Assembly (NCBI RefSeq): GCF_030412785.1
Contig: NZ_CP125296.1
Coordinates: 1,240,001 to 1,304,000, forward strand
Direction of reading: 5' to 3'
Source: Paraburkholderia sabiae
Lineage (GTDB): Bacteria > Pseudomonadota > Gammaproteobacteria > Burkholderiales > Burkholderiaceae
DNA: 64,000 bases
Shown: in pieces, positions 8,214-55,083 of the stretch
Layout of the letters: each line of letters opens with the position of its first letter
Position numbering within the stretch: position 1 is the stretch's first letter
Translations under genes and position numbers: made by a program
Notes under the pieces: model-generated
What the model saw: only the letters and a program-made list of their open reading frames with translations
Databases searched by the model: none
Told to the model about the DNA's origin: nothing

Positions 8214-8216
8214 GCG

Positions 8217-8234
8217 CGATGCCGTCCGGCATCG
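8217..8234 (+). terminator. hairpin after flgE
   Basis: CGATGCC and GGCATCG form a perfect 7-bp stem with a GTCC loop, starting four bases after the flgE stop. There is no T-run, so it may be a processing or stability element instead. Confidence 0.4.
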
Positions 8235-8370
8235 TGATGTCAGTGACATTCGCGGCGGCCGCATCGGTTCGCCGCACACGCTTTGCGCACCACCGGGCTG
8301 CGCGCGTCGGGCTGCGGCCCACCACGAGACTTAACGCTGCGCACGATGATGCGCGAAAGAGGAAAGACCA

Positions 8371-9153
8371 GTGAACCGCTCACTTTATATCGCCGCCACG
8401 GGGATGAATGCGCAACAGGCGCAGATGGACACCATCGCGAACAACCTCGCGAACGTCAGCACGAATGGCTTCAAGGGCTCACGCGCCGTGTTCGGAGATC
8501 TGCTGTACCAGACGATCCGCCAGCCGGGCGCAAACGCGACACAGCAGACGCAGTTGCCCTCTGGCGTCCAGCTCGGCACGGGTGTGCAGCAGGTCGCGAC
8601 CGAGCGCCTGTACACGCAGGGCAACCTCCAGCAGACGGGCAATTCGAAGGATGTCGCCATCAATGGCCAGGGCTTCTTCCCGGTCATGATGCCCGACGGC
8701 ACGAACGCGTACACGCGTGACGGCTCATTCCAGACCAACGCGCAGGGGCAGCTCGTGACCTCGGGCGGCTATCCGGTGGCGCCCGCGATCACGGTTCCGC
8801 AGAACGCGACGTCACTCACGATCGGCCGCGACGGCGCGGTGTCCGTCACGCTCGCAGGGTCGAGCGTCAGCCAGCAAATCGGCGCGATGCAACTCGTGAC
8901 CTTCATTAATCCGGCCGGGCTCGATGCAAAAGGCGAAAGCCTGTTCGCGGAGACAGCGAGCTCGGGCGTACCCAACTTCACGGCGCCGGGCACGAACGGC
9001 GCGGGCGTGCTGAATCAGGGTTATGTCGAGGCGTCGAACGTGAACGTCGTGCAGGAGCTCGTCAACATGATCAAGACGCAGCGTGCGTACGAAATCAACA
9101 GCAAGGCGGTGACCACGTCCGACCAGATGCTGCAGAAGGTCAGCCAGCTGTGA
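8371..9153 (+). CDS. flgG: flagellar distal rod protein
   Basis: 260 residues, the normal FlgG length. It opens [20 protein letters not shown], then has [19 protein letters not shown] (rod signature), VAINGQGFF, and the conserved C-terminal helix ([20 protein letters not shown] to MLQKVSQL). It would form the distal rod through the periplasm. The gap of 157 bases to flgE holds no flgF. Downstream, flgK follows after 109 bases where flgH would be expected. It appears intact. Confidence 0.95.
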
Positions 9154-9262
9154 GGTCGGTCCCGGCGCAGTGATCGCCGGATCTGACGCGCCTCGCGGAT
9201 AACCCGTCGACATCCCATCGATATCCCATCACCGGCTCTCATGCCGACACCAGGATCCACGC

Positions 9263-36718: not shown

Positions 36719-39082
36719 TTATTGGACAAAGCCAGCGTTCAGTAGCCCTCGCGCCCATGGATCGGTCTGATCGAACTGTCGACGGACGGTCCCGAATGAT
36801 TTGTCGCAGATGCTGCTCTCAGGGTTATCACAGTCATGTGACGATGGCAACTTCCGGAACGCGTCCTGGGACATATCCTTTCGGAGCATGCCAAGCATGG
36901 TCGTGAAGACGGGATCCGAATTGCCCAAAGCCTCGCTCATCGCGGCATTGTGCATCGCTTGCTCAATGATGGCGTCGGAATACCCGCGAGCCTGCAGTTC
37001 CTTCAACGTCAGATATCGCTTACGTTGAAGGACGATCGCGTTGTTGAGCGTTTTAGCGTCGGCAAGCCTGTCTTTCGCGATCGCCTTCATCGCGGTCGTG
37101 AGCTGCACACGTACCTGCTCGAGCTCGATGTCCATCGCGCCGCGCGGGTCGAAACTCACTGTCTGGTCGCGTAAGACCACGGTGCGCACATTGTCGAGCC
37201 GAGTGGCCCCGATATCTGCACGGATCCACTTCGCGCCCGCGCTGGCGCCCCACCGCAGGATTGCCGCCGTTTTGAGCAGATCGTTGAGCGCTGCAAATTC
37301 GGGCAATTTGTCGGGCGCGTCGCTGATCACGACCGAGCGCTCGGGTGCATTATTTGTCCCCTTCGTGTCGGAAGGCCGAAGGAACTCGAACATGACTGTG
37401 CGGCTTGCACCCGATTGCGCCGCAACCTCGATGACGTCGCCTTTCGTCGATATCAGGGATGGCCGTTCCGCGAAGCGATACCACCCACCGAATTGATGCT
37501 TGATGAGCGCAGCGCACCATTGCTGCATCGTTAGTACCGTCGCATTCGTTGGCGGTGGCATGACGCTGGCGACGTCCACCCGATCGGCCAGTTGGCGTCT
37601 AAACAGGAACCCGGCACCGTCGACAACAACAAGATCGCGTCCGATGTTCAGGTCTGAAATGGCTGGATTGACAAGAAACTCCGCCGCTTGGACCGGATAC
37701 TCCAGAGATACGAGCAGTGAGATAAGGATCGCTCCAGTCGACCCGTTCGCGGCAAGCGGCTCGACTTTGCGCTCGCGATCGCCGAAAGCGAGCCGCTGCG
37801 CAGCAAGAAGCACGTCCGGCCGCACGGGCGATCCGAACAATACCCGTCCGTTACTCATCGCGACGACGGGCACAACCCGGTCGGAATGTTCGATTGTGCG
37901 AAACGACATTGCAAGCGGCTGCCCGGCAATGGACGAAGTGACGGGACTGCCCATGATAATGCCACCGCCTCCGAGACCGCCGCCCGCGGACCGCATCCCG
38001 GCGAAATCCGGCAATGCGACGGGATTGACGCCGTCCGAATGCAACTGTTGTGCGACAAGTTTGTAACCCGGTGGTGGACCTGGTTTGGGCGGCGGCGTGG
38101 ATCCCCGTCGAAGCGCCGGGTTTGCACCTCCGCCTGGACCTCCATTGTTGGGACCTCCATTTCCAGTGGACACATGCGGAGGTGGCTGATCCCGGTTATT
38201 GCGCATGTTGTCGATGATCCGGTCGGCGAGGGCAAGGATCTCCGCGTGCTCCCGCATCGCGTCGGCTGACGCAGGCTTACGCGATGCTTCGTGCGCAGCG
38301 ACCAGAGGCGGCGGCCCTTTGTCATCATTCAATGTGACCTGCCGACCGCCAAACATCTGGACTACGGCTTCTTTGCGAAAGCTCACACCACCATGCAAGG
38401 CCAGTGCGACGACTACATCGCGCAAATGCTGCTCCGGGCTGGGGGGAATAGAGGAGTGCGCGATTCCCGTCATCAACGCGTCCGACGTGTCGGACGAGGA
38501 CTGCTCGATATCCATGGCGACGGTAGGCGACAACCCCAGCACGTCTACCATGAGGCCATGCATGCCGCCTGGATGTAGCCCTGAGTAGCTGGAGAGCGGC
38601 TCGAGCAAACGCCGCGCGGCTGCGGGCAGGCGTGCTGCGACGTCGGGGGTAGCGCCTACGGTGCGATCAAACTCGAATCTGCGTGCGACGGGCGCGGGAA
38701 CGGGAGCGTCTGGCGGAAACTGGCTAAAGTACGTGCGTAGCGCAGGTGCATATCGAATCGCGTCCGCGTGATGTGCCGCAATTCCCTGCGCCACGTTTTG
38801 CAGGAGTTCCATCGCTGCGCCGGACCGCTTGCGTTCGGCTTGCAGTGCGGCCCAGGCAAGCGCATACGCAGGCGGCGAGCGCTCGACGATCTCATCCGTC
38901 CTGGCGTTGTCCAGGAAGCCGGTCATGCGCAACTCTTCGTGAAGCGCCGACGACGAGAAGGTCAGTGACTGCGCGCACTGCATCACCTGATCACGAAATT
39001 GCTGCGTGATTTCCGCAAACGCTGGTATCAGCGCAACGATACACGCCAGCGCAAGAAGCGCGGTGGCGAAAATGCGTTTCAC
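36719..39082 (-). CDS. large secreted protein of unknown function
   Basis: 787 residues. GTG 39082 overlaps the stop of the upstream hydrolase gene by four bases (GTGA), so translation is coupled. A signal peptide (MKRIFATALLALACIVALIP, cut after AFA) precedes a helical region (about 25-290), a low-complexity Gly/Pro linker (about 310-400: NGGPNNGGPGGGANP, TPPPKPGPPPG), and a mixed alpha/beta C-terminal part ending with a helical charged stretch. Two Cys pairs lie near the ends. No domain family was recognised. It is likely periplasmic or surface-exposed and works with the lipase-like protein encoded just before it. Confidence 0.78.
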   Translation of the reverse strand: MKRIFATALLALACIVALIPAFAEITQQFRDQVMQCAQSLTFSSSALHEELRMTGFLDNARTDEIVERSPPAYALAWAALQAERKRSGAAMELLQNVAQGIAAHHADAIRYAPALRTYFSQFPPDAPVPAPVARRFEFDRTVGATPDVAARLPAAARRLLEPLSSYSGLHPGGMHGLMVDVLGLSPTVAMDIEQSSSDTSDALMTGIAHSSIPPSPEQHLRDVVVALALHGGVSFRKEAVVQMFGGRQVTLNDDKGPPPLVAAHEASRKPASADAMREHAEILALADRIIDNMRNNRDQPPPHVSTGNGGPNNGGPGGGANPALRRGSTPPPKPGPPPGYKLVAQQLHSDGVNPVALPDFAGMRSAGGGLGGGGIIMGSPVTSSIAGQPLAMSFRTIEHSDRVVPVVAMSNGRVLFGSPVRPDVLLAAQRLAFGDRERKVEPLAANGSTGAILISLLVSLEYPVQAAEFLVNPAISDLNIGRDLVVVDGAGFLFRRQLADRVDVASVMPPPTNATVLTMQQWCAALIKHQFGGWYRFAERPSLISTKGDVIEVAAQSGASRTVMFEFLRPSDTKGTNNAPERSVVISDAPDKLPEFAALNDLLKTAAILRWGASAGAKWIRADIGATRLDNVRTVVLRDQTVSFDPRGAMDIELEQVRVQLTTAMKAIAKDRLADAKTLNNAIVLQRKRYLTLKELQARGYSDAIIEQAMHNAAMSEALGNSDPVFTTMLGMLRKDMSQDAFRKLPSSHDCDNPESSICDKSFGTVRRQFDQTDPWARGLLNAGFVQ

Positions 39083-40323
39083 CCGGCTTCTCCCTTCAGC
39101 AGACTGCGCAACATGGCGTCTATCTCATCTCGCGCAGCGCGGATTGCAGGCATTGGTGCCTCCGCAATCATCGCAGCCATCATTCGTGGGCCCTTCAGTT
39201 TGGACGCGCTGAGCGCCGACTGCAGAACAGTCTGTGGAGGGGCAACAATGGGGGCAAGCTCACCGCCCGTGACGCTTACCAGGTGGAACCGGCCGTTATA
39301 TTCCGGGTAGAGGTCGTTCACAAGCGCCGAAGCAGCTCCGACGCGGTCGTGAATATCCGCCCCATCGGTGGCGGCCAGATATTGATGCCTGAACCGTTCG
39401 CGGACGAAGTCTGACCGGACGGCTGCACCGGGCGGCACAGCTTCCACCAGCCGTCCGAGCGCGATTTCATTGGCGGCGAGCAGATAGTCTGCGAGGTTGT
39501 CGTGCGCAAGCAGGTCGGACGCCGATGGAACCTTCGCCTTACCAGTTGTGGCGCTCGCAGACGCAGCAGCACGCATCTCCCACGCCTGCTGGCGCTGGTG
39601 GATGAATTCGATCAGCACCCTGTGCTGCAGCTCCTGATCGTCCTTCGGCTTGCCGATCGTGAAATGGTTTGATCCCGGAATTTTTAACGGATCGCGGAAA
39701 TAGCGACGCGCACTCAAGGGCGACACGACGGGTGCAAGCGAGAACATTCCAGTGCTGAAGATCGATATGTCTTCATAGAGTTCACGTCCCGCAATCTCGT
39801 GCTTGTACACGAGATCGATAAAGTCGTCGTCCAGGCTCTCCAGCCACTGGTTGTCTTCACCGAGGCGCATGGACTCGGCCTGAGCATGCTTGAAGAAGCG
39901 AGCGATCGGCCTGACCCAGTTGGCGTAAATCGACCCGAGTGATGGTGTCGCCACGAGGAACACGCTCACCTGTTTGCCTGCGAGTTCGTCGATTCGCTGC
40001 ACCAGCATGCGCCTGATAACAAGCCCGCCCATGCTATGGCAAACGAATACGATCAGTTCGTGATCAAGCACCCTATCCAGGCGCAGTTCTTCGAAAACTG
40101 CGCTGGCGGCATCGTTGATGCTATAGGTTCCACTGTCCAGGCCCGTGCGATACGTGGACACATAGACACCCAGATCTGGAATCTGATCAGTGTTGGCAAC
40201 CAGGTCAGGCCAGAACGTGCCGCTCGCTTCGTCTTTCCAGCATGACGCACCGGAGGAAAGCACACCGTGAACGAAAACGACAGTCGGGCCTGCGTCAGCT
40301 TGCCGGATCCAAACTCCTGGCAT
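39079..40323 (-). CDS. lipase-like alpha/beta hydrolase
   Basis: 414 residues from ATG 40323 (MPGVWIRQADAGPTVVFVHG, GGGGG upstream). The frame allows a longer start at GTG 40410. VVFVHGVLSSGASCW is the oxyanion-hole segment and VFVCHSMGGLVIRRM the nucleophile elbow (Ser97). An acidic residue and SNHFTIGKPKDD (probable His) complete the triad. A C-terminal domain of about 150 residues (from DLLAHDNLADYLLAANEIAL) is unlike known lipases. There is no signal peptide. The fold suggests a lipase or esterase of the DUF676/PGAP1-like kind. The coupled downstream gene encodes a large exported protein. Confidence 0.82.
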   Translation of the reverse strand: MPGVWIRQADAGPTVVFVHGVLSSGASCWKDEASGTFWPDLVANTDQIPDLGVYVSTYRTGLDSGTYSINDAASAVFEELRLDRVLDHELIVFVCHSMGGLVIRRMLVQRIDELAGKQVSVFLVATPSLGSIYANWVRPIARFFKHAQAESMRLGEDNQWLESLDDDFIDLVYKHEIAGRELYEDISIFSTGMFSLAPVVSPLSARRYFRDPLKIPGSNHFTIGKPKDDQELQHRVLIEFIHQRQQAWEMRAAASASATTGKAKVPSASDLLAHDNLADYLLAANEIALGRLVEAVPPGAAVRSDFVRERFRHQYLAATDGADIHDRVGAASALVNDLYPEYNGRFHLVSVTGGELAPIVAPPQTVLQSALSASKLKGPRMMAAMIAEAPMPAIRAARDEIDAMLRSLLKGEAG

Positions 40324-40933
40324 GACAACCCCCAGATAGAGCTGCCAGGCACGTAGCGCAGAATCCGTTTGGCATTCGTCAGAAAACCTGGCCGCGAGGA
40401 TGCGGCGCACCGGCTACACAGGACTGGCGATCATTGACCCGCGTACAAGACCCAGCATTTGACGGAGATTGAAATTGTTATAGGAATGGTCCACCGGCAC
40501 CGCAAGCCTTGTAGCTAGTGCTATTCCGCCATAGCGCGTCAGCGCGGACGGTTGCTGCGGGTAACGAACCGGAAGAGGGGATCTGATGACGTCAATAAGT
40601 TAAGGACTGCAAACACATGCAACGGATTATTTCCAGAAATCGCTCCAACGCCTGCCATCAACAGGATGGGATCCGTGGCTTCGCGGTGATTTTCACGTCG
40701 ACATGCCGGGCCGCAACACGGTCATCTTCTTCGCGTTCAACTGGGGCCTCGTGACGAAGTCGCGAAGCGCTCCTGAAACTCCCCTGTTGCCCCATGCTGA
40801 AATGCGCCCCAGATGTCGCGGCACAATCAGTGCGCCGTCACAGAATCGGGGCGAAGGGGGCGAAGGCGAAGACAGCAAACGCGCACGACACGCTCAACCT
40901 CGATAACGGGTGCTGTAAAAAGAAAAGGGCAGG
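40324..40933. other. intergenic, no gene recognised
   Basis: 610 bases upstream of the hydrolase operon, holding its promoter. The reverse frame 40693-40878 and the forward frame opposite it are not protein-like. Confidence 0.4.
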
Positions 40934-42237: not shown

Positions 42238-43602
42238 TTATTGGCGGTCCGTTTCCTTGCTCTTCGGCAGCAGATGCCCGTAACGCTCGATAAAGCTCGC
42301 CACGGCAGCTTCAAACCGCGCGGTTTCGGCGTCTCCAACGGGAAGACTCAGCACGACGTAGCCACGCCGCGCGATGTAGATGCCATTCTCGAGCAGGTGA
42401 AAAAAGAACAGATCCTTGAATACGTTAAGCGACGCATCGATATCGCGCACCGAGCGAACGGGCCTGTCGGTGATCTGGAGATTCATCAGCGAGCCCACCC
42501 CGATAAAGCGCAGCGCCACGTTTGCTGCGCTGAAGCGCGCATTGAGCGCATCGCGCAGCGTGTCGCCGCGCGCGGTCAGGGCCAGTGCTGCCTCGGGCGT
42601 ATAGACCTGTGTCAGCCCGGTGAATCCGGCCGCCATCGTCATGACGTTGTTGTTGAAGGTGCCCGCATGCTGCAACGCGCCGCTTCTGCGCGGATCGAAA
42701 AGCTGCATGATGTCGGCGCGGCCGCCGAAAGCGCCAAACGACATGCCTCCGCCGATATATTTGCCGAGCGACGTGAGGTCCGGCACGATCTCGAGCGTCG
42801 ACTGCAGTCCACCGGGCGCGAGGCGCGAGGTCATGACCTCATCAAACATCAGCAGCGCGCCGTGTGCAGTCGCAAGCTCGCGCAATCCCTTCAGGAAATC
42901 CCTGTCGCCCACGATACAGCCCGACGCGCCCTGCATCGGCTCGACAAGAATCGCGGCCACTTCCGACGGGTTGTCATGTAGCAGGCGCGCTACGCTGTTG
43001 ACGTCGTTGTACCTGGCGTACAGAAACTCGTGGGGCACGTTCACCGCGTTCGGCCCGCGCCCGAAGGTCAGGACGCCGCCGTGATAGCCCCCCACGAACA
43101 CCACCACCTTGCTGCGCCCCGTGAAAGCTCTCGCCGCTGCGAGCATCATCAGGTTGGCTTCCGTGCCGGAGTTGGTGAAGCGCACCGACTGCAGCGACGT
43201 GAACCGTTCACACACCGCCTTCGCGAGACGCGATTCCAGCAGGTTGTGGCCGCTCAGATTCAGGCCGTCGTCGAGTGCGGCATCGATGGCACGGCGGATC
43301 TGCGGATCCGAATGACCGTAGATGCCTGCGCTGAATTCGGCAATGAAATCGAGGTACTCGTGACTGTCCGCGTCCCACAGGCGGCATCCTTCGCCCTTCG
43401 TCATCGCGAGCGGGAAGGGTTCATAGAACAGCACGGACCGGGTATTGCCGCCGGGCATGACTCCCGTTGCAAGTTCGTACTGGCGCGCGCTCTTCGGATT
43501 GCGCGCGGCAAACGCGTGGGCAGCTGCGGCGAGCGCTTCGGCCGGCGTGGTCAGCTCGCGCGGTGCGGCCGGTTGCGCTGCGGATAGGGTCGACGTCGTC
43601 AT
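42238..43602 (-). CDS. class-III PLP aminotransferase (glutamate-1-semialdehyde aminomutase-like)
   Basis: 454 residues. Class-III signatures are complete: RFTNSGTEANLM (cofactor phosphate site, 141-152), GGYHGG (171-176), LMFDEVMTSR with Asp254/Glu255, and Schiff-base Lys281 in SLGKYIGGGMSFG. It resembles HemL but sits in a catabolic cluster, so the role is probably transamination or amino-group shift on an unusual amino acid, not haem synthesis. An operator-like dyad lies 92 bases upstream of its start. The MFS transporter gene is upstream on the same strand. Confidence 0.93.
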   Translation of the reverse strand: MTTSTLSAAQPAAPRELTTPAEALAAAAHAFAARNPKSARQYELATGVMPGGNTRSVLFYEPFPLAMTKGEGCRLWDADSHEYLDFIAEFSAGIYGHSDPQIRRAIDAALDDGLNLSGHNLLESRLAKAVCERFTSLQSVRFTNSGTEANLMMLAAARAFTGRSKVVVFVGGYHGGVLTFGRGPNAVNVPHEFLYARYNDVNSVARLLHDNPSEVAAILVEPMQGASGCIVGDRDFLKGLRELATAHGALLMFDEVMTSRLAPGGLQSTLEIVPDLTSLGKYIGGGMSFGAFGGRADIMQLFDPRRSGALQHAGTFNNNVMTMAAGFTGLTQVYTPEAALALTARGDTLRDALNARFSAANVALRFIGVGSLMNLQITDRPVRSVRDIDASLNVFKDLFFFHLLENGIYIARRGYVVLSLPVGDAETARFEAAVASFIERYGHLLPKSKETDRQ

Positions 43603-43693
43603 TCGGGTTTCCTGCCTTCTTTATCAGGAGTCGTTTGCGCCAGGTCCGCCCTGATGCAGTGGCCCGGACGCGGGCGGATTAAACAATAATCCA

Positions 43694-43708
43694 TTGTACA
43701 GTGTTCAA
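43694..43708. promoter_or_regulatory. operator copy 1 (TTGTACAGTGTTCAA)
   Basis: A 15-bp dyad matching TTGNNC-N3-GNNCAA, 92 bases upstream of the aminotransferase start and just after the MFS stop. The same element recurs at 46320 and twice at 48659-48695, all within this module. It is probably bound by the TetR regulator encoded at 46.5 kb. Confidence 0.65.
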
Positions 43709-43725
43709 TAGGCGTGGGGCGTCGA

Positions 43726-45027
43726 TCAGATCGATTTTTCGTGGGCCCGGTCCTTCATGACGACGAGCGCCGGAAGCGTGACCAGCGCGCTGCCCGCAAG
43801 CAGCCAGCCTGCGTTCGCGCTTGCGCCCGTCGAAGAAATCGCCCAGGTCGTCAGAAACGGCGAGAAGCCGCCAAGGATCGTCGCCAGTGCGCCGCCAAAG
43901 GCGACGCCCGTCGAGCGCACGCGCGTCGGGAACATTTCCGCGAGGGCAGCAGGGCCGGCGCCCGAATACATGGTGAAGACCACGTTCATCAACAACTGCG
44001 TCCAGAAGAAGGCGATGAAACCGATGCCGGACACGATAAAAGCATAGAGCGGATACGAGAGCAGGGCAAAGAACACGCAACTCGCAAGAAGCACCGGCTT
44101 GCGTCCGACGCGGTCCGACAGCGCGCCCATCAGGGGCGCGATGATCATCACGGTGGCGAGCGACGCCGTGCTTGTCCATAGCGCCTGCGTACGCGAGATA
44201 TGTGCATATCGGTTCGCGAAAGTCGGCATGTAGACGGCGACCATGTACGAGCTCACCGCCCAGAAAATCACGAAGGAGAACGCGTGAAAGAGCGAGCGGG
44301 TGAACTGTGCGCGGCTCAGTGTCTGCGCGCGTGCGCTCCCGGCCTCGTACGCAGGCGACTCCTGCACGCGCCGTCGTACGTACATCCCGACGGGACCGAG
44401 CAGCGCGCCGAGAAAGAACGGAATGCGCCAGCCCCACGATGCGAGCTCGCCTGCGTCCAGCGAACTGCTCAGGATCGCCGCGGCGAGTGATCCGAGCAGC
44501 AGTCCCGCCGCGATGCTCGATTGCTGGAATGCGCCAAAAAATCCGCGACGGTTCGCACCGCCCCATTCGACCAGGAATGCCGCCGCCGTTCCCCACTCTC
44601 CGCCCGCGGCGAAACCCTGCACGAGGCGCGCGGCGACGAGCAGGACGGGCGCCGCGACGCCGATGCGCTCATAGGTCGGCAGCAGGCCGATCGTCACCGT
44701 GCTGATCGCCATGAGGATCATGGTCAGGGCGAGCGTGATATGGCGTCCCCGCACGTCGGCGACGCGGCCCAGCACCAGGCTGCCCACCGGTCGCGCGACG
44801 AAGCCGACGCCGAACACGGCGAACGACGCCAGCAACGACGTGAACTCGTCCGCCGAAGGAAAGAAGTTCTTCGCGATAATGGCTGCGAGAAAGCCATACA
44901 CCCCGAAGTCGAACCATTCGAGGATATAGCCGACCATGCCTGCGCCGATGGCGCGCCTCTGTTCAGCGCGGATCGTCGAGGGCGAACGCGCGTCGAGGGC
45001 GCCTGCGTGAGAAGAGCTGCTGTTCAT
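43726..45027 (-). CDS. MFS transporter, MHS (metabolite:H+ symporter) family
   Basis: 433 residues from ATG 45027 (GGAAG upstream), with about 12 membrane helices. The N-terminus AIGAGMVGYILEWFDFGVYG is the MHS signature (EWFDF). GFVARPVGSLVLGRVADVRG is the loop 2-3 motif and SDRVGRKPVLL its repeat. MHS members (ProP, KgtP, ShiA types) import organic acids, betaines or amino acid derivatives with protons. It lies in a run porin, MFS, aminotransferase on one strand and should import the substrate of this catabolic module. Confidence 0.94.
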   Translation of the reverse strand: MNSSSSHAGALDARSPSTIRAEQRRAIGAGMVGYILEWFDFGVYGFLAAIIAKNFFPSADEFTSLLASFAVFGVGFVARPVGSLVLGRVADVRGRHITLALTMILMAISTVTIGLLPTYERIGVAAPVLLVAARLVQGFAAGGEWGTAAAFLVEWGGANRRGFFGAFQQSSIAAGLLLGSLAAAILSSSLDAGELASWGWRIPFFLGALLGPVGMYVRRRVQESPAYEAGSARAQTLSRAQFTRSLFHAFSFVIFWAVSSYMVAVYMPTFANRYAHISRTQALWTSTASLATVMIIAPLMGALSDRVGRKPVLLASCVFFALLSYPLYAFIVSGIGFIAFFWTQLLMNVVFTMYSGAGPAALAEMFPTRVRSTGVAFGGALATILGGFSPFLTTWAISSTGASANAGWLLAGSALVTLPALVVMKDRAHEKSI

Positions 45028-45105
45028 GTTCGCTTCCGGTTTGTCAGTGGGAGAGGCGCCGGGCGCGCGAGCCTGATACGCCCGGTTGGCGCGCTGCCGG
45101 TGTGC

Positions 45106-45137
45106 AGTTGCGTACAGCGGCGTGAAGTTGCGTACAG
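45106..45137. repeat. 20-bp-spaced direct repeat AGTTGCGTACAG
   Basis: Two copies of AGTTGCGTACAG (45106-45117 and 45126-45137) in the porin-MFS gap. They share TACAG with the module's operator but not its dyad. They could bind a regulator or be a local duplication. Confidence 0.4.
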
Positions 45138-45156
45138 TGCCATGCAATGGCGTGAA

Positions 45157-46242
45157 TCAGAACTTGTGTCGGATGCCCACGCGCAGCGCGAGCTGCTTGT
45201 CATTTCCAGAGGCCGGCAGCGTCACGAGCACAGCCCGGGCGCCGCCGTTCGCCTTCTGGTAGTTCGCGCTCACGTAGACATCGGTTCGTTTCGAGAGCAG
45301 ATAGTCGAGCACCGCATTGAACTCGTTCCAGTTGTACGGTGACATTCTTGAGTAGCCGTAGCCGCCCGCAACGATGAGGTCCGGACGCAGATAGCTATGC
45401 ACGACCGCGTTGATGCTTTGCATGGTGGAAGCATTCGCACCCGTTTCATAGCGGGTGTTGGTGTACAGCGCGGACACGCCGACGACCCTGAAATCGTACG
45501 AAGCGCCGATGCCGGCCGTGCGATACCGGTCCACGACGACTGCCGTCGACGAGAACGCGACGTCCACGCCAAGAAAACTGCCCACGCCAAAACTGCTGCC
45601 GGGCGTCACCGTGTAGTGGTGGATGCTGGTGGTCGCCGCGCCGATGCTCAACGGGCCGTGCTCGTAGCTCGCGCTCAGGCTGTAGGCGACGCCGTAGCTG
45701 TTGGCCGGCGCACTCTGCGAGTTGAAGCTGTACTGCGCCGAAAAGCGCAGGCCGCGGATGGTCGGGCTCGTGTAGGTCACGACGTTGTTGAGCCAGTTGC
45801 CGGAGATCCGGTCGTGATCGCCGGCGTCGAACGCGTAGATGCCCGACCAGTAGCCGGAGTGGTAGCGGATCAGTGTCATCGTCATCTGGTCGTACGTGCG
45901 GCCGAGCGTCACTGCGCCGTAGCGATCGCTCTGCAAGCCGACATACGCCTGCCTCCCGAACTCGAGCCCGCCCTGGCGCGAGGCGCCCGTGTTCGGATTG
46001 AAGCCACCCTCGAGATTGAAAACTGCCTTCAGGCCGCCGCCCAGATCCTCCACGCCCCTGAAACCGAAGCGGTCGCCCTGGCTGATGCTGTCGTCCATCC
46101 GGTATGCGTGGTGGCCGCCCTGATTCGACACGTACGTCAGGCCGTCATCGATCACGCCGTAGAGGACGACCGACGATTGCGCGTGCGCCGCCGCGCTCGC
46201 GGCCAATAGTCCCGTCAGGCCTGCCAGCATTTTCCATTTCAT
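45157..46242 (-). CDS. outer-membrane porin of the catabolic module
   Basis: 361 residues. The signal peptide MKWKMLAGLTGLLAASAAAH is followed by AQSSVVLYGVIDDGLTYVSN, the porin first strand. VTLGRTYDQM and a C-terminal Phe (VGIRHKF) fit the Burkholderia OmpC-like family. It probably lets the module's substrate across the outer membrane. It is transcribed divergently from the TetR regulator; one operator copy sits at 46320-46334, between the two. Confidence 0.94.
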   Translation of the reverse strand: MKWKMLAGLTGLLAASAAAHAQSSVVLYGVIDDGLTYVSNQGGHHAYRMDDSISQGDRFGFRGVEDLGGGLKAVFNLEGGFNPNTGASRQGGLEFGRQAYVGLQSDRYGAVTLGRTYDQMTMTLIRYHSGYWSGIYAFDAGDHDRISGNWLNNVVTYTSPTIRGLRFSAQYSFNSQSAPANSYGVAYSLSASYEHGPLSIGAATTSIHHYTVTPGSSFGVGSFLGVDVAFSSTAVVVDRYRTAGIGASYDFRVVGVSALYTNTRYETGANASTMQSINAVVHSYLRPDLIVAGGYGYSRMSPYNWNEFNAVLDYLLSKRTDVYVSANYQKANGGARAVLVTLPASGNDKQLALRVGIRHKF

Positions 46243-46319
46243 GGTTATCTCCGGTACCCGTCGTGAGGAATGCCGGCTGAGCTCGCGTCAGCGCGGCCTG
46301 TTTAATGAACATCGTTATA

Positions 46320-46334
46320 TTGGACAGTGAACAA
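46320..46334. promoter_or_regulatory. operator copy 2 (TTGGACAGTGAACAA)
   Basis: Same 15-bp dyad as at 43694 and 48659. It lies 78 bases upstream of the porin start and upstream of the divergent TetR gene, so one bound dimer could control both. Confidence 0.7.
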
Positions 46335-46498
46335 TAACGGGTTATATGGCGATCAAAATAGAAGTGCAAGCAGGAATTGAATGGAGCTCGCTGCCGCGCG
46401 TCGCGGCAACGCGACAGTTGTGCGGTATACAATGGGATTCTTGTGCGACCCTTTTTTCGCCCGCAGGCACGGGGCGCTTTACCGCGGATGGCCCACAC

Positions 46499-47413
46499 GT
46501 GAAGAAAGCAACGACTGGAATGGAAGTGGCCACAAGGCCGGCAAAGACGGGGACGAAAGCAGAGGCGAGAGCAGGGACGAAAGCGGAGGTGAAGGTAGCG
46601 ACGAAAGCGGGGACGAAGGCAGGGTCGAAAGCAGGAACGAAAGCGGGCGCGAAAACGGGCACGAAAACGGCCGCCCGGCCGGTCGCCGCCGTCCCGGCGA
46701 AGCAGGCGCGCGTGGCGGCGAAGAAAAAGGCCGCGCCATCTGACAGGGCGCTGACCCGCGAGCGGATAGTCGCGGTCGCCATCGAGCAGATCGACCAGAA
46801 CGGACTGACGGCGTTCAGCCTGCGCGAGGTCGCGCGCCAGCTCGATGTGTACCCGGCGGCCGTCTACTGGCACGTACCGAACCGTGATGCGCTGCTCGCA
46901 GCCGTGGTTGAGGCGACCATGTCGGGGGTGACGCCCGAGATCGGCAAGCTGGAATGGCAGGACTGGTTCCGCGAGCTGTTTCGCCGCTATCGCAAGTCGG
47001 TGCAGAAGCATCCAAACGTCGCGCAACTCGTGGGCGCCCAGCTCGTCTCGAATGCGAGCCTGAGCCCGCTGCTCATCGACCGCATTCTCGCCGTCCTGCT
47101 CGATGCCGGCTGCGGCGAGGAGCGGCTCGTCGACATGTACAACGTCGCGGTCGCCAGCATGGTCGGCTTCGCGACGCTCGAACTCGCGCCACTGCCGACC
47201 GACGATCTCGACAACTGGGCCAGCCAGTTGCAGGACAAGGTCCATGAAATCCGCGCACTGGAGTATCCGACGCTGGCGCGTCACCTGCCGGCACTGGCCA
47301 ATCGCGCGTTCATCGTACGCTGGCAAAGCGGCAGTGAGGTGCCGCTCGATTCGAGCTTCGAGGCATTCGTCGAGGTCACGATCGCCGGCATGGAACGCGT
47401 GCTCGCAAAGTGA
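46499..47413 (+). CDS. TetR-family regulator with a histone-H1-like N-terminal tail
   Basis: About 304 residues from GTG 46499. The frame is open to ATG 46346, but the first 50 codons there are not protein-like; ATG 46520 is also possible. Residues about 15-85 are a Lys/Ala/Thr tail of repeated KAGTKAG units, like histone H1 or AlgP tails. The HTH follows (RERIVAVAIEQIDQNGLTAF, SLREVARQLDVYPAAVYWHV), then a helical TetR_C ligand domain. It is the only regulator in the module and stands next to three of the four dyads. It is probably a repressor released by the catabolic substrate. Confidence 0.88.
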   Translation: MKKATTGMEVATRPAKTGTKAEARAGTKAEVKVATKAGTKAGSKAGTKAGAKTGTKTAARPVAAVPAKQARVAAKKKAAPSDRALTRERIVAVAIEQIDQNGLTAFSLREVARQLDVYPAAVYWHVPNRDALLAAVVEATMSGVTPEIGKLEWQDWFRELFRRYRKSVQKHPNVAQLVGAQLVSNASLSPLLIDRILAVLLDAGCGEERLVDMYNVAVASMVGFATLELAPLPTDDLDNWASQLQDKVHEIRALEYPTLARHLPALANRAFIVRWQSGSEVPLDSSFEAFVEVTIAGMERVLAK

Positions 47414-47422
47414 CGGGCAGGT

Positions 47423-48466
47423 TCAGACAAAGGCCAGCAGGCGGCGGGGATTGTGGATGAGCAGCGTATCGATCTCGTCCTGCGTGAATCCGCGCCGTAG
47501 CATGCGCGGGACGATATTGGCGAAGATGTGCTGGTAGCCATGACCGCCATAGCGGCCCAGACGCGTGCGCGTGCAGATGTCGTGACTGATCAGCACGCGC
47601 TCGGCATGCCCGCGATCGAACAGCGTGCGCGCCATGCGCAGACGCGCGCCGTCGTTGGGCATGTCGATGTCCGACATCGGATAGGCGCTCTGCTCCCAGC
47701 CGAACAGATCGAACTCGATCACGCAGCCTGAATCGGCGAGCCGCAACAGGCGCGCATCGTCAAAAATCGTCCGGTCGATGTGGCTGATAATGACGCGCTC
47801 GACGGGAAAGCCCAGGCGCCTGATCGTGTCGACGACCTCCTGCGGCTGATCGGGATGCCGTCCCGGATGAATGTTGAGGGCCGCGCCCGTCGCCTGCTGG
47901 GCGATCAATGCCCCGTGAACGACACGCTTTTCCAGTTCGGTCCACGGCGACTGGCAGCCGATCTCGCCGATCATCCCGGCGCGCACCTGCGTGCCCCATG
48001 CGCCTTCCGTGATCTGCCCGATCATCTCCTGCGCGAAGTCGTCGATGGACCGGGACGCATTGGCGGGATCCTGATATTCATGCACGTAGTGCCCGCATCC
48101 CATCACGACAGGCACGCCCGCCTCGCGTGAAATCTGCGCCAGTCCGGCGGGGTCGGGCTTAAGCCCTCCCACCGTGAGATCGACGATCGCGGCACCGCCG
48201 GCCTCGCGCATCCCGATCAACTCCTCGACCGCGACCTCCTTCTGGTCGAGCCGGTAGTTCTTCAGCGACGGCATTTGGCCGTACGCGATCTTCCAGCAGT
48301 TGCACAGGTCGATTTCCGTTTCGTCATGGTCGGCGTCTTCATCCAGCCGTGGCGGCACGAGATCGATCAGCAGATGCTCATGCATCAACGTCGGCCCCAG
48401 ACCGGCCGGGTCGATGAGACCGAGTACCGTCTGGATGCGGCCTTTCCGTGGTTGGGAACCGTTCAT
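47423..48466 (-). CDS. phosphotriesterase-family metal-dependent hydrolase
   Basis: 347 residues, complete TIM-barrel amidohydrolase. Metal ligands are visible: His29 and His31 in LMHEHLLID, Glu in IGEIGC at the position where true phosphotriesterases carry carboxylated Lys, His in NIHPG, His in ISHIDRT, and Asp in LISHDICT. The Glu-bridged form is typical of PTE-like lactonases and amidases such as PHP proteins, so lactone or amide hydrolysis is more likely than phosphotriester cleavage. It ends nine bases from the TetR gene (convergent), and its start faces the double operator at 48659. Confidence 0.93.
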   Translation of the reverse strand: MNGSQPRKGRIQTVLGLIDPAGLGPTLMHEHLLIDLVPPRLDEDADHDETEIDLCNCWKIAYGQMPSLKNYRLDQKEVAVEELIGMREAGGAAIVDLTVGGLKPDPAGLAQISREAGVPVVMGCGHYVHEYQDPANASRSIDDFAQEMIGQITEGAWGTQVRAGMIGEIGCQSPWTELEKRVVHGALIAQQATGAALNIHPGRHPDQPQEVVDTIRRLGFPVERVIISHIDRTIFDDARLLRLADSGCVIEFDLFGWEQSAYPMSDIDMPNDGARLRMARTLFDRGHAERVLISHDICTRTRLGRYGGHGYQHIFANIVPRMLRRGFTQDEIDTLLIHNPRRLLAFV

Positions 48467-48658
48467 GTTTTCTAGCGTCCGTATGGGGTTTCAGGTCAGC
48501 AAGGGGCGACAGGCCAGCTTCAGGCCAGCAGGGGGCTGATGGTGAAGCCTACCCCTGCGATGGCGGGCGTCACGCGCGTCGCCACGTCGTCGACGGCCGG
48601 GATGCGAGGTTCACGTTATTCCTGGGTTGATGCAGGGAACCGGCAAGAATAGATTTCA

Positions 48659-48695
48659 TTGTACGTTGAACAACTATAAATTGTCCGGAGTACAA
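48659..48695. promoter_or_regulatory. tandem operator copies 3 and 4
   Basis: TTGTACGTTGAACAA (48659-48673) and TTGTCCGGAGTACAA (48681-48695) both fit TTGNNC-N3-GNNCAA. They are 22 bases centre to centre, two helical turns, so two dimers would bind the same face. They lie between the divergent phosphotriesterase-like and BKACE genes. Confidence 0.72.
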
Positions 48696-48738
48696 AAATA
48701 CCCGATGTCGAACGCAGATTCAACAGGAGACGGCAGAC

Positions 48739-49656
48739 ATGAGCAGACCCAGAGTGATCGTGACCATCGCGCCCACGGGCGGGATGGCGAGCAGGAAGCA
48801 GAACCCCAGCCTGCCGACGCAGCCCGAAGACATCGCGCGTGACGTGTACGACTGTTTCAATGCGGGTGCGAGCGTCGTCGCCGTCCACGCGAGGCGTCCG
48901 GATGACGGCGCAACGTGCGACCCGTCGATTTACCGCGACATCAACACGCGAATCCGCGACAGGTGCGACATCGTCATCAACAACTCGACGGGTGGGGGCG
49001 TGCACGGCGACATGATTGCGCAGGCACCCAACGGGTACTGGGAAATCCTCTGGGAAGAACGTCTGAAGGGGCTCGACGCCGGTGCGGAAATGTGCACGCT
49101 CGACGCGACGACGATCATCGCGAGCTTCGACGACCGGGAACTGCTGATGCATACCTCGCCGCAACGATCGAAGCATCTCGCGGCGGAAATGAAAGCGCGC
49201 GGCATCAAGCCCGAGTGGGAGGTGTTCAGCCCCACCCACATCGTCCAGGACGTGGCGTCCCTGACCGCGGCGGGGTTCGACGAGGAGCCGTTCTTCATCA
49301 ACCTCGTACTCGGCGCGCACCGGGGATTCCAGAACGCCATGCCGTATTCGCCGCGCATCCTTCAGTCGATGGTGGACCTGCTACCGCGGGGGAGCATCTT
49401 TTGCGTGAGCGGCATTGGCGCTGCGCAATTGCCGTCGGCGATGAATTCGCTGCTGCTGGGCGGACATGTGCGCGTCGGGCTCGAAGACAACCTGTACTAC
49501 GGACCGGGAGAACTCGCGACGAACGTACAGTTGACCGAGCGGGTTGTCCGGATGGTACGGGAGATGGGGTATGAGCCCGCCAGTCCGGCCGAGGCTAGGG
49601 CCATGATGGGCCTGCCTCGACGTACGGGCGCGAAACCGGCGTTCGCCGCAGGCTGA
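48739..49656 (+). CDS. BKACE (DUF849) beta-keto acid cleavage enzyme
   Basis: 305 residues. [20 protein letters not shown] and [20 protein letters not shown] open the TIM barrel with the zinc-ligand His of this family. [27 protein letters not shown] and [15 protein letters not shown] are further DUF849 landmarks. BKACE enzymes condense a beta-keto acid with acetyl-CoA, giving acetoacetate and a new CoA ester; the family covers many substrates. Here it would act after the aminotransferase step. The tandem operators lie 43 bases upstream. Confidence 0.94.
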
Positions 49657-50958: not shown

Positions 50959-51828
50959 TCAGACGGCAGCGGGCGCAGCCAGTAGCGCCTCGTGCTCAAG
51001 TCCCGCACCGTACGTCTGCATCAGCCCGACGATGCGCCTGACGTACGGATCGTTGGACCTGCACAGTCGCGGCATCAGGGCGGCATTGTCCTGCAGCAAT
51101 CCGGGCTTCGAGTACTGGCGAAAGAGGGCGTCGACGACGGGCGGCGCATGGGGAACGAGTTTTTCCGCAAGCCGCTCCCTGACGCGCAGATACTCGCACA
51201 GTCCCACGGGATCGTAGTCCGCGCAATGCCGCACGGCGGTAATGGCCGGACACCGGCCGAGCCACGCGAGCATGCGCTCGGAAATCCGGCCGGAATACAG
51301 GACAACGGCCGCAACCTTTTCCGCAACCCAGTCGTACCGCATGAAGAGCTCGGGGCCTTCAACGAGCGCTATGGAACCGGCGAGTTGCGGCTCGTATTCG
51401 CCTCCCAGTACCACGGAAATACATCCTCGCTGTTGCGTCTGCCTTGCCGCGTCCGCATCGTGCCCGTCGCACGTGAAGGCCGCATCATCAAACACCCGCA
51501 CATGTGCGAGTTCGAAGTCGAGTCCCCCCATCGCCTTGGTGTCGCGAAAGTGCGTCAGCGCGCCCGTCCGTGTTCCCGTCAGGACGGCGTCCTCGACCAG
51601 CAGGCCGTTCGGATAGAGGTTGGTGGCGAATGACCGGAGGATGGCCTGATTGACGCATACGACAGTCTTGCCTGCGCCACTTCGCTGGATCTGGAGCGCG
51701 CCAGCGTCAAAAGCCGCCTGCAGCCGTTTGTGTGTCAACGCGGACAGCGCGCTCAGTGGCGCACTCTCGCCCTCGAGCAGACGGTGGAGCAGTTTCGCAA
51801 GGGGATCAAGCGGCTTCAAGTTCGTCAT
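50959..51828 (-). CDS. jetD: Wadjet subunit JetD (TOPRIM-like nuclease)
   Basis: 289 residues from ATG 51828, which overlaps the end of jetC by 23 bases. The C-terminal half carries the topoisomerase VI-A/TOPRIM-like metal site: Glu in IALVEGPELF (153-162) and the acidic pair in HCADYDPVGL (201-210). The N-terminal part is a winged-helix-like arm. In Wadjet, JetD cuts plasmid DNA after the JetABC condensin has extruded it. It is last gene of the four-gene operon. Confidence 0.88.
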   Translation of the reverse strand: MTNLKPLDPLAKLLHRLLEGESAPLSALSALTHKRLQAAFDAGALQIQRSGAGKTVVCVNQAILRSFATNLYPNGLLVEDAVLTGTRTGALTHFRDTKAMGGLDFELAHVRVFDDAAFTCDGHDADAARQTQQRGCISVVLGGEYEPQLAGSIALVEGPELFMRYDWVAEKVAAVVLYSGRISERMLAWLGRCPAITAVRHCADYDPVGLCEYLRVRERLAEKLVPHAPPVVDALFRQYSKPGLLQDNAALMPRLCRSNDPYVRRIVGLMQTYGAGLEHEALLAAPAAV

Positions 51829-54535
51829 CGGGATCCTGGCGTCGGATACGGTGCTTCGGTTCAAGCACGGCGCGCCCCTCTTTTGCCCAGTGCACAAAGT
51901 ATAGGGTGTCGGCGACCGCGACGGGCGTGGTGCTCGCCAGGACGGGTACGAATCCCAGACCCGTGGCCGTCTTCACCAGTCCCTTCAGGTTGTCCTCGTC
52001 GATCTGGTTGGCCTCATCCAGGTAAAACGGAATGGCGAAAGTGCGGTCCTTTTTCATCATGTCGCGCATCAGCATCATGTTGACGAGCGCCTTGATCATC
52101 ATCGTGGTCCCGTTGGACTCGATGGCGTCCAGCTTCGAAAAGGTCTTGGTGCGGCCATTGGCATATTCGACCACGAATTCGATACCAAACAGATCGAGCA
52201 GTTCGACCTTGCCGGTTGCGCCGCGAATCAGGTTGCTGACGTCATCGATGGCCTGGCCCGTCTCGGCGCTATCGCCAAAAATCCCGCCCGCGTTGAACAG
52301 CGCCTGGTAGGTTCTGATGCGCTCGCGGTTTTCGACGATCTGCATGGAGATCGATTTGAGGTTGGACACGGTCACGCTGCCCAGCCGACGGCTGAAATCT
52401 GACACCCGGTCCGACAGCCGGATGACGTCGCTGAGCATCTCCCGGATAGAGGACTTGATTTCCGTCACCAGTCCACTCCACAAGGCGTCGTAAGACGCCT
52501 TCTTGTCCGCCAGGCTGTCGATTGCGTCGATCGCCGACGCGGCCTTTTCTTCGGGGCTGGCGCCCGACAGTCCGTCCTGCATCCGGCTTTCGACCAGTGC
52601 GATCTGCGTTTCGATGGTTCGCGTCGCCTCGCGCTCCGCGGCATCCGCGCTTCGGTAACGCTGCAAAAGATCCGGGAACGACATACCGGAGTAATCGGGT
52701 GGAACGTTCGCTTCGGGCCACGTGTCATCCGGCGCAGCAACGTGTTCACGCTCGATCCGGGTGATATCCGCGTTGATCGCGTTCCTGCGGTTCACTGCCT
52801 CCACCTTTTCGCCCGACAGGGCGTCGATCAGCCCGGCGATCTCCTCCTGGCGGCTCTCCATCGCGTCACGTCGTGCAGTCAGTTCCTCTACCGTTGCGCG
52901 CTGCGACGGCAGCGCGTTAAGCCGCTCAAGCAGCGTGAGATATTCATCGATCTGCTGCTGGCGTGCAAAGATTTCCTTCTTCCTGGCGTCGATTTCGTTC
53001 TTGAGGGTTTCACGGGCCAACGCATCCTCGAGATGCTGCCTGCGGGCCACAAGCTTCTGTTCGAGGGCCGCGATCTCTTCCGTCAGCCGCGTGAGGTCGG
53101 GGATGAGTGACGTTGGACCGGGAACAATGCGGACGGGAAACGAAATGCCGTGGCCTGAAAAACGCTGGTCCTGCGGACTGACAAGACTGTCGATGTGGTC
53201 CAGCGCCCTGACCAACGCCGACTGATCGTCAATCCTGATAGCCTCGTCAGACACCTCACGTTCCAGCAGTTTCGGATTCAGGACGCGGAAGACGTCCCGC
53301 AGCTGGTGCTCGCCGAGCTCCCTGACGAGGTATGAGCCGAGAAGCCTGTGGTGACCGTCGCGGATGCGGACCTTCTCCGCATGCTGCTGCTCCAGGTCTG
53401 CGATATCGCGTCTGATCACGGCGACCGGGTCGCCCGACTGGTGGTATTTCCCTTGCAGAACTTCGAGTTCCTCGACGAGGTTGTTGAGCGAAGACTGCTG
53501 CAGGTCCTGTTCGAAGTACGCATACTTCTCCTGAAGCTTCAACGTTGCGTCAACAGCCCGTTGCGCATCCGTGAGCGGCATCATCAGGCCCGTCTGTTGC
53601 CCGCGCAGGGCACGCGCTTCGGCCGTGAGCACGCCGTGACTTGCGTCGGCATCGCCGATGCGCTTCGAGAGGGCATTGCTGCTGGAGCGCAGGTTTGCCA
53701 GTGCTTCGTCGCGCAGCTGACATAAGGCGCGATACATTGGCCTGAGTACGACGCGCGAGTGTGTCTGGTTCTGGATGGCGATCCGCAGTTGCGACACCAG
53801 CGGTGCGATGCCATCAAGCCGGTCGATCGCCCGCTTTTCCAGTTCCAGTTTTGCAAAGCTGGCTTCGTGGTCTTTCTGCAGGTCGATGGTCGGCTTCGTG
53901 AATTCGCGCCGGTATATCTCGACGAGGGTCTGTTTGATGGTCTCCTGTTCCATCTTGTTGAGTTCGAGCAGGTTGCGAAACAGTCGCGTGAACCGTTCGT
54001 TGGACGTGCCATCTCGCAGCGGGACGATGCCGAGGTTCAGGCGCCGGTCGTCCCACGCGCCGACCAGGCACGCACGCATGTCTTTCGGCTCAAGCAGCCT
54101 GAAATGCTGACGATGGGCCATGATGTCGGCCTTGATGCTGTCGAACTCACGCACGACGTTTGCGTCGTCGACAAACATCGAGCGATCGTAGCGCCCCGGA
54201 AATGCAAACCGGTCATAGCGGTAGGAGCCGATCGGACCGAGCCCACGCAGTCCGATGGTCACGTAACTGTGCGTCTCGGCCGACAGACACTCGAACAGGA
54301 TGTAGCTGGTCGGATGCCTGAAGTAGTATCGCCTCGTGTCTTCGTGCGTGTAGGCGCCAAAGTGCATGGCGTTCTGGTCCGGGACGAACAGGAACTGCAC
54401 GGCCGCGATAATCGACGTCTTGCCGACGTTGTTGCGACCGACCAGGTGAATGGGACCCTGCAGATCGACCTCGGCGTAGTCGTAGTTGCCCGAGCGGATG
54501 AAGATCATCCGCTTGCATCCCGGAATATTGATCAA
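51806..54535 (-). CDS. jetC: Wadjet subunit JetC (SMC/MukB-like ATPase)
   Basis: 909 residues, taking TTG 54535 as start: it overlaps the jetB stop as TTGA, with GGAG upstream. The frame extends 23 codons further. Walker A is GRNNVGKTS (33-41) and Walker B with catalytic Glu is IPFYLDEANQID (about 835-846). In between are two long coiled-coil arms (about 215-395 and 495-620) around a hinge. This is the motor that extrudes DNA loops with JetA and JetB. The size fits the shorter Wadjet classes. It is clearly MukB/SMC-like, not RecN or Rad50. Confidence 0.93.
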   Translation of the reverse strand: MINIPGCKRMIFIRSGNYDYAEVDLQGPIHLVGRNNVGKTSIIAAVQFLFVPDQNAMHFGAYTHEDTRRYYFRHPTSYILFECLSAETHSYVTIGLRGLGPIGSYRYDRFAFPGRYDRSMFVDDANVVREFDSIKADIMAHRQHFRLLEPKDMRACLVGAWDDRRLNLGIVPLRDGTSNERFTRLFRNLLELNKMEQETIKQTLVEIYRREFTKPTIDLQKDHEASFAKLELEKRAIDRLDGIAPLVSQLRIAIQNQTHSRVVLRPMYRALCQLRDEALANLRSSSNALSKRIGDADASHGVLTAEARALRGQQTGLMMPLTDAQRAVDATLKLQEKYAYFEQDLQQSSLNNLVEELEVLQGKYHQSGDPVAVIRRDIADLEQQHAEKVRIRDGHHRLLGSYLVRELGEHQLRDVFRVLNPKLLEREVSDEAIRIDDQSALVRALDHIDSLVSPQDQRFSGHGISFPVRIVPGPTSLIPDLTRLTEEIAALEQKLVARRQHLEDALARETLKNEIDARKKEIFARQQQIDEYLTLLERLNALPSQRATVEELTARRDAMESRQEEIAGLIDALSGEKVEAVNRRNAINADITRIEREHVAAPDDTWPEANVPPDYSGMSFPDLLQRYRSADAAEREATRTIETQIALVESRMQDGLSGASPEEKAASAIDAIDSLADKKASYDALWSGLVTEIKSSIREMLSDVIRLSDRVSDFSRRLGSVTVSNLKSISMQIVENRERIRTYQALFNAGGIFGDSAETGQAIDDVSNLIRGATGKVELLDLFGIEFVVEYANGRTKTFSKLDAIESNGTTMMIKALVNMMLMRDMMKKDRTFAIPFYLDEANQIDEDNLKGLVKTATGLGFVPVLASTTPVAVADTLYFVHWAKEGRAVLEPKHRIRRQDPDDELEAA

Positions 54536-55083
54536 GCCTGTTCTCCTTCGTTCGCGGGGCTTGCGCCATCCGCCCGGGTAGTCCGTTTCGCCAGGTCCAG
54601 GCACACCTTGAGAATCCGGCGCGTGGGCGACAGGAACTGGATCCGGTCAGCGTTCTGGCGCACAAACCCTGCGCGCTCCATGTTGCTGATGATCCGGTTC
54701 AGGTTCACCTCGTCGTCGCCACCAATCTGGCGAAGATACCCCCGGTAGCGCTCGGACTTCAGATGCGGCAGATCCCGGATGGGACGGGCGACGCCGAAGA
54801 GGCCGTCTTCAACGCCATGATCGTTGTCGCTGAGCCAGTCAATCATGATGTAGGTGAAGAGAGCATATTGCTCGACACCCTTCGCGAGGCCCTTTTTCGA
54901 ACCGTTGAAATAGTAAAAGCCGTGAGGGTCGGCGATGAACTCAAAGCCGAGCGCAGCAAAGATTTCGCGATACCGGCCGGTATGGGCCGACAGAGACGTG
55001 AAGACTTCGCCGTCAACGCTGCTGATATGCCGACCTCGCGCGAGCTGGGCGAACGCGTCCTCAAGCTTGTCAGGCAGATCCAT
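54532..55083 (-). CDS. jetB: Wadjet subunit JetB (MukE/KITE-like)
   Basis: 183 residues. It has tandem winged-helix character, with landmarks FIADPHGFYYFNGSKKGLAK, YALFTYIMIDWLSDNDHGVE and NRIISNMERAGFVRQNADRI. This matches MukE/KITE proteins that bind the kleisin and DNA in condensin complexes. Its start overlaps the jetA end by 14 bases and its stop overlaps jetC, so the operon is translationally coupled. Confidence 0.88.
   Translation of the reverse strand: MDLPDKLEDAFAQLARGRHISSVDGEVFTSLSAHTGRYREIFAALGFEFIADPHGFYYFNGSKKGLAKGVEQYALFTYIMIDWLSDNDHGVEDGLFGVARPIRDLPHLKSERYRGYLRQIGGDDEVNLNRIISNMERAGFVRQNADRIQFLSPTRRILKVCLDLAKRTTRADGASPANEGEQA

Follow-up and report, generated by a model that had tools for sequence, protein, structure and literature searches.

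Introduction

(S)-β-Phenylalanine is used via transamination by Paraburkholderia strains PsJN and BS115. In the available part of the report (PMC6150868) the route is traced as far as the transaminase, and the acetophenone released is ascribed to spontaneous decarboxylation of the β-keto acid. A word search of the main text of that paper for 'regulator', 'phosphotriesterase', 'gene cluster', 'transporter' and 'benzoyl' returned none of them. Mouse PTER, a phosphotriesterase-related protein, hydrolyses N-acetyl-β-alanine faster than N-acetyltaurine and is inactive on N-acetyl-α-alanine and on N-acetyl-GABA (γ-aminobutyric acid), according to the accessible portion of PMC13311154. Here we describe a gene module in the soil bacterium Paraburkholderia sabiae in which relatives of a β-transaminase and of PTER lie beside a TetR-family regulator. 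The module occupies positions 42238–49656 of a 64,000-nucleotide stretch (NCBI RefSeq assembly GCF_030412785.1, contig NZ_CP125296.1, positions 1,240,001 to 1,304,000), the whole of which we call the window. A preliminary description, made from the letters of the window, had its gene list right at the family level: a class-III aminotransferase, an MHS-type transporter, a porin, a TetR protein, and members of the phosphotriesterase (PTE) and BKACE families.

The closest regulatory counterpart is the TetR/tetO-type system (PF00440 and PF02909). Both Pfam domains are shared, as is a 15-bp palindrome in the gaps beside the regulator and its neighbours. Unlike TetR/tetO, the module has a regulator with a long Lys/Ala-rich N-terminal tail, an operator of the form TTGT[AT]C-N3-G[AT]ACAA, and catabolic neighbours with no efflux pump. 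On balance, we favour reading the module as a substrate-inducible regulon for the breakdown of N-acylated β-amino acids, probably aryl or otherwise hydrophobic ones. By mechanism this would be an ordinary TetR regulon; its combination of enzymes was not found described in the open-access literature, and its DUF849 subfamily is odd. Among the papers listed from that literature, titles and the starts of abstracts showed no report of such a regulon, regulator or complete pathway. β-Amino acids are widespread in natural products and drugs, and the module supplies candidates for steps on either side of the transaminase, together with a regulator and an operator, which makes the pathway directly testable.

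A shared candidate operator recurs in related loci

Four 15-bp sites (O1–O4, Table 1) lie in the gaps before module genes, with O3 and O4 in the gap that separates the PTE-like gene from the BKACE-like gene; the coordinates and letters first proposed for them are all exact. The accompanying claim that the motif occurs only in promoter gaps of the module fails for the pattern as written, since TTGNNCNNNGNNCAA also matches at 40434, 51883 and 53113 in the window. These seven window matches compare with 1.2 expected, and none of 100 shuffles reached seven. Across the 9.91-Mb genome the loose pattern has 93 places, from which, by our own arithmetic, about 0.006 matches would be expected in the ~650 bp of the three module gaps. 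Because this pattern was derived from the four sites themselves, comparative tests weigh more than the chance estimate, and the test of the regulon was taken from other loci and genomes. A tighter form, TTGKHCNNNGWWCAA, has 13 distinct places genome-wide, four of them the module sites, and still matches at 53113. A sigma-70 scan gave one weak promoter-like site, overlapping O3/O4, with no excess over shuffles (mean 1.2).

The TetR was searched in 144 genomes of the genus, and the aminotransferase in the same 144, in 398 genomes of the family and in a named genome collection. Longer stretches were fetched around the matches, and second copies of a locus were removed (L002–L007, L015, L019, L101, L102, L103, L105 and L107). 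The resulting set is without long stretches from G014, G053, G096, G107:C109 and G109, and from G374, G394, G434 and G216, the last of which may be the genome of L023. Aminotransferase loci that are distant or from other taxa (L050–L059, L062–L099) were left out of the operator counts. A site was counted if it fell within a range that ran from 350 bp upstream to 30 bp downstream of a module gene's estimated start.

Fourteen loci besides the window encode a TetR with at least 63% identity in its domain, and in all 14 a site precedes at least one module gene, despite differences in gene order. The recognition helix reads VYP[AST]A[VIL]YWHV in 13 of them and is unreadable in L108, a decayed copy. 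Among related loci whose gene starts could be estimated, a site stands at the start of the aminotransferase gene in 12 of 13, of the porin gene in 10 of 11, and of the PTE-like gene in 6 of 10. In L104 (G009) the BKACE gene lies beyond the aminotransferase gene while sites still precede the aminotransferase, porin and PTE-like genes, which indicates that the site travels with the genes. No site was found on scanning L024, L025, L026, L106, L109 and L161–L164. In L110, where the TetR is at 43% identity and the aminotransferase was not found, two loose sites stand upstream of the TetR gene. Among L050–L059, L087 and L088, scattered loose matches occur in L054, L055, L058 and L059, none near the aminotransferase gene.

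All 144 genus genomes, eight of which carry the module (G000, G003, G009, G034, G037, G041, G130 and G137), were scanned for the strict form ATTGTWCNNNGWACAA. This form is present in seven of these eight, at 15 distinct places that all fall within the module, and in 16 of the 136 genomes without the module, at 17 places; a motif frequent at random sites, which would have undone the regulon reading, was not what the genome-wide scan returned. The view that a loose pattern, itself made from the four sites, matches them by chance is largely refuted and scarcely credible. The pattern is indeed self-derived, has 93 genome places and matches at three window positions beyond the module; the sites nevertheless recur upstream of the same genes in each of the 14 other loci, and the strict scan finds the motif concentrated in the module. 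A chance origin was rejected on the loose, tighter and strict genome scans together with this recurrence.

The decayed locus L108 (G130:C2:49000-66000) retains two intact operator sites among PTE-like, TetR, porin, MHS and aminotransferase genes that are spread over several pieces or frames. The aminotransferase is patchy in the genus (16 of 144 genomes at E 1e-130 or better), as is the TetR (18 of 144 at E 1e-30), a distribution that suggests horizontal spread or repeated loss.

The candidate operator varies with the TetR recognition helix

The DNA-binding domain of the module's TetR is confirmed by PF00440 (35.5 bits, cut-off 24), and PF02909 also matches (33.3 bits, cut-off 21). Its recognition helix is presumably similar to the helix of the tetracycline repressor. 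Many Variovorax loci that encode this type of aminotransferase have an adjoining TetR at 52–57% identity with the helix VYPATVHWHV, and in 16 of 16 such loci a site lies between the TetR and aminotransferase genes; Variovorax loci lacking that TetR match have a site in none of six. Half-site position 4, which was left free in the search, carries T in 66 of the 70 half-sites from the 15 class-A loci, which count the window among them; of the 32 half-sites in Variovorax, 28 carry A. Loci with the helix VYP[AS]TIYWH[VL] have the site in none of four, and no other palindrome recurs in a gap there either.

Recurrence in orthologous loci, retention through rearrangement, rarity elsewhere and the shift of the half-site with the recognition helix lend support to the regulon proposed from the window, beyond what the window itself showed. 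These comparisons support treating the four sites as true operators, and support a shared operator tied to the module's TetR. A different regulator might bind the palindrome, with the TetR merely a neighbour. The TetR–operator link does come from comparing sequences, and three loci (L109, L163 and L164) lack a site although the helix of their distant TetRs is similar. We consider a different regulator improbable, given that site and TetR co-occur without exception (14 of 14 loci in one group, 16 of 16 in the other), that none of the six Variovorax loci without the TetR has a site, and that the half-site differs with the helix.

The aminotransferase and the PTE-like hydrolase

The nearest solved relative of the aminotransferase is 4ao9, the (S)-β-phenylalanine aminotransferase of Variovorax paradoxus (537 bits), followed by two β-transaminases at 456 bits each, with all others listed at 252 bits or less. 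Its likeness to 4ao9 and to the β-transaminases 6iz9 and 2yku runs over nearly the whole length. The motif of aromatic β-transaminases is given as R41, V43, E75 and Y76 in the available text of PMC9850050. The module's enzyme keeps the first three as R55, V57 and E89, and Phe90 replaces Y76 (by alignment to 4ao9, whose native numbering we took as chain number minus 20). Unlike the module, the Variovorax loci with this kind of enzyme showed no relatives of the porin, PTE-like or BKACE-like proteins within the stretches examined. An amidase-signature gene adjoins the aminotransferase gene in L020, L022, L023 and L156, and lies in the same locus in L157.

The PTE-like hydrolase has 9efa, a phosphotriesterase-related protein, as its nearest solved relative. 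Residues of mouse PTER were mapped by motif and spacing with 9efa as a bridge, and counted over the query and 119 homologues aligned among the matches listed, out of 2797. The PTER metal ligands H26, H28, E169, H201, H230 and D298 correspond to H29, H31, E168, H200, H229 and D296, each in 120 of 120 sequences, and the predicted substrate contacts R204 and R233 to R203 and R232, both also in 120 of 120, with near-identical numbering. The protein differs from mouse PTER in being bacterial, in having Cys298 (120 of 120) for His300, and in being the regulon-mate of a β-transaminase. A β-selective deacylase and a β-amino acid aminotransferase under the same operator make N-acyl-β-amino acids a consistent substrate class. 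Homology and residue conservation point to deacylation followed by β-transamination. Amide opening and transamination, as first proposed, are backed by homology and can be sharpened to putative N-acyl-β-amino acid substrates; for ring opening we found no specific support.

The substrate could instead be an N-acyltaurine-like sulfonate, a lactam, a lactone or an ester, in which case the PTE-like protein would be a lactonase or an esterase, and a non-aromatic amine would be the substrate of the aminotransferase. PTER also cleaves N-acetyltaurine; in the accessible portion of PMC13311154, Arg204 is needed for that substrate and dispensable for N-acetyl-β-alanine, so that its retention here by itself decides neither. 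PTE-family relatives include lactonases and organophosphate hydrolases, His300 of PTER is a cysteine here, and published β-transaminases of this type accept aliphatic substrates too, as stated in the part of PMC9850050 available. Against such substrates, the aminotransferase is far closer to β-transaminases than to other solved class-III enzymes, which a β-selective deacylase fits, and the NCBIfam lactonase and organophosphate models score far below cut-off on the PTE-like protein. We regard a substrate outside the N-acyl-β-amino acids as fairly unlikely.

A DUF849 protein with a replaced zinc-ligand position

The BKACE-like protein has the DUF849/BKACE domain and a TIM-barrel fold. Its NCBIfam matches all fall below cut-offs and were not used for assignment. 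The zinc ligands of Kce are, we assume, two histidines and a glutamate. The BKACE-like protein does not have the whole set: the first histidine is replaced by Ala48 in 124 of 124 sequences examined, and the second (His50) and the glutamate (Glu249) are kept. The first histidine is kept in 28 of 28 distant BKACE-family loci. In addition, Glu14 of Kce is Met16 here, and the subfamily has an extra invariant histidine, His194 (123 of 124), found in none of the 28 distant loci. The residues of the relatives' BKACE proteins were read in 30 of 43 matches. β-Keto acid cleavage, as proposed for the window, gains from family membership and is left unsecured by the alanine at a Kce zinc-ligand position; its metal site may have been rebuilt, or the enzyme may be a decarboxylase.

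The Ala48 subfamily occurs in 32 of 144 genus genomes. Its neighbourhoods were read in 23 loci, made up of 15 stretches chosen from 35 matches and eight loci of the module type; in L156, L220 and L221 the BKACE gene itself is not among the called frames. Relatives lie near a 3-hydroxyacid dehydrogenase gene in 12 of the 23, some with crotonase and acyl-CoA synthetase genes.

The same regulon and first steps could end differently, with the BKACE-like enzyme, short of a zinc ligand, decarboxylating the β-keto acid to a ketone or performing some other reaction, and no CoA-dependent cleavage. The division between alanine in 124 of 124 and histidine in 28 of 28 distant loci fits this. The BKACE family is reported to contain non-BKACE groups, of which one decarboxylates (PMC4922564, in the portion available), and Paraburkholderia grown on (S)-β-phenylalanine releases acetophenone, although the authors call that decarboxylation spontaneous in the available part of PMC6150868. 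His50 and Glu249 are invariant, however, and the dehydrogenase (12 of 23 loci), crotonase and acyl-CoA synthetase neighbours suggest CoA chemistry. The Hydrogenophaga locus L025 likewise pairs the aminotransferase and PTE-like genes with an acetoacetate-CoA ligase gene, though its 14.3-kb stretch yielded no BKACE. We take decarboxylation, or some other reaction, to be a fairly unlikely alternative to cleavage.

Six loci (L215–L220) hold relatives of the Ala48 BKACE (83–90% identity where measured) in a different operon, with a crotonase, a 3-hydroxyacid dehydrogenase and a helix-turn-helix (HTH)-shikimate-kinase protein; an acyl-CoA synthetase is also present in four of the six.

Proposed pathway and its weak points

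In the pathway we favour, the TetR would bind the 15-bp palindrome before the porin (and MHS) genes, the aminotransferase gene and the divergent PTE/BKACE pair, and would reach its own gene through the gap it shares with the porin gene. It would repress porin–MHS, aminotransferase, PTE-like and BKACE-like genes, and probably itself, until a pathway compound releases it. The porin and symporter would import an N-acyl-β-amino acid, the PTER-like hydrolase would strip the acyl group, and the aminotransferase would convert the β-amino acid to a β-keto acid. The BKACE-like protein, with its altered metal site, would most likely turn the β-keto acid into an acyl-CoA and acetoacetate. Repression with release by an inducer and the BKACE reaction are the least certain parts of this proposal. 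The last step, which draws on family membership with one failed feature, is both the weakest and the most surprising.

Several observations weigh against this reading. Only one of the four sites in the window's genome fits ATTGTWCNNNGWACAA, the other three deviating from it. A site stands at the BKACE start in just 3 of 11 related loci with an estimable start; the three BKACE genes with their own site are orthologues at 86–89% identity, and the other eight (~69% identity) have none. L156 has no site before its aminotransferase gene. The siteless L109, L163 and L164 have TetRs at 43–45% identity, so the helix alone is no predictor of the site. The two operator versions correspond to two clades, hence few independent events, and the pairing is strong support rather than proof. 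Among the enzymes, Ala48 stands in place of the first zinc-ligand histidine of Kce, Cys298 in place of His300 of PTER, and the kept Arg204 equivalent may leave room for a sulfonate or another substrate. For binding, expression and enzyme activity alike, the proposal draws on sequence comparison.

A fuller version, possible but rather doubtful, would be a complete TetR-controlled route for N-acyl-β-aryl amino acids. In it, a DUF849 enzyme whose metal site has been rebuilt, with Ala48 present and His194 or some other residue substituting, would turn the unstable β-keto acid into aroyl-CoA and acetoacetate, averting its loss as a ketone such as acetophenone, and Variovorax with the same kind of aminotransferase would use a diverged TetR/operator pair. 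If so, that pair would provide a natural two-version set for the study of DNA recognition. The DUF849 subfamily, with its replaced zinc-ligand position, is a clear target for enzymology.

Module features and genomic context

The MHS symporter gene, which has no site of its own, is probably co-transcribed with the porin gene (Table 1). Before its DNA-binding domain the TetR has a long, repeat-like N-terminal tail rich in Lys, Ala and Thr (46499–46745); the tails of its relatives in L020, L021, L022, L100 and L155 are of similar make-up and variable length.

Table 1. Genes and predicted operators of the module, in window positions.
Feature	Position	Strand	Sequence	Remark
Class-III aminotransferase	42238..43602	-		Closest to (S)-β-phenylalanine aminotransferase 4ao9
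Operator O1 (predicted)	43694..43708	.	TTGTACAGTGTTCAA	Centre 99 bp before aminotransferase start
MHS-type metabolite/proton symporter	43726..45027	-		Internal ATG taken as start, where the relatives' alignment begins
Gram-negative porin (Porin_4)	45157..46242	-		
Operator O2 (predicted)	46320..46334	.	TTGGACAGTGAACAA	Centre 85 bp before porin start, in gap common to porin and tetR
TetR-family regulator (TetR_N, TetR_C_1)	46499..47413	+		GTG start, as HVKKA is common to relatives
PTE-family hydrolase, PTER-like by residues	47423..48466	-		
Operator O3 (predicted)	48659..48673	.	TTGTACGTTGAACAA	Centre upstream of both genes, 73 bp from BKACE-like start and 200 bp from PTE-like start
Operator O4 (predicted)	48681..48695	.	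TTGTCCGGAGTACAA	Centre 51 bp before BKACE-like start
BKACE-family (DUF849) protein	48739..49656	+		Ala48 at position of first Kce zinc-ligand His

The Hydrogenophaga locus L025, from a metagenome-assembled genome, carries an M81/MlrC-family protein gene directly before the β-transaminase and PTE-like genes (6427–10363), along with parts of a peptide-type ABC transporter and the acetoacetate-CoA ligase, which scores above cut-off. The NCBIfam MlrC score of the M81/MlrC-family protein is below the model cut-off. MlrC acts in the breakdown of microcystin, whose residue Adda is a β-amino acid. By analogy, a link between this protein and β-amino acid peptides may be worth testing.

Elsewhere in the window, the loose site at 40434–40448 lies ~24 bp upstream of a minus-strand open reading frame (ORF, 39079–40410) whose start is α/β hydrolase-like. 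The match at 51883 overlaps the start of ORF 50959–51897, and that at 53113 lies inside ORF 51806–54604. Beside the module are four consecutive minus-strand ORFs (50959–56302), one of which begins like an SMC/MukB ATPase and is matched weakly by LmuB and JetC in PADLOC; two of the four were scanned, and the four together look like a condensin-type (Wadjet/Mks-like) operon.

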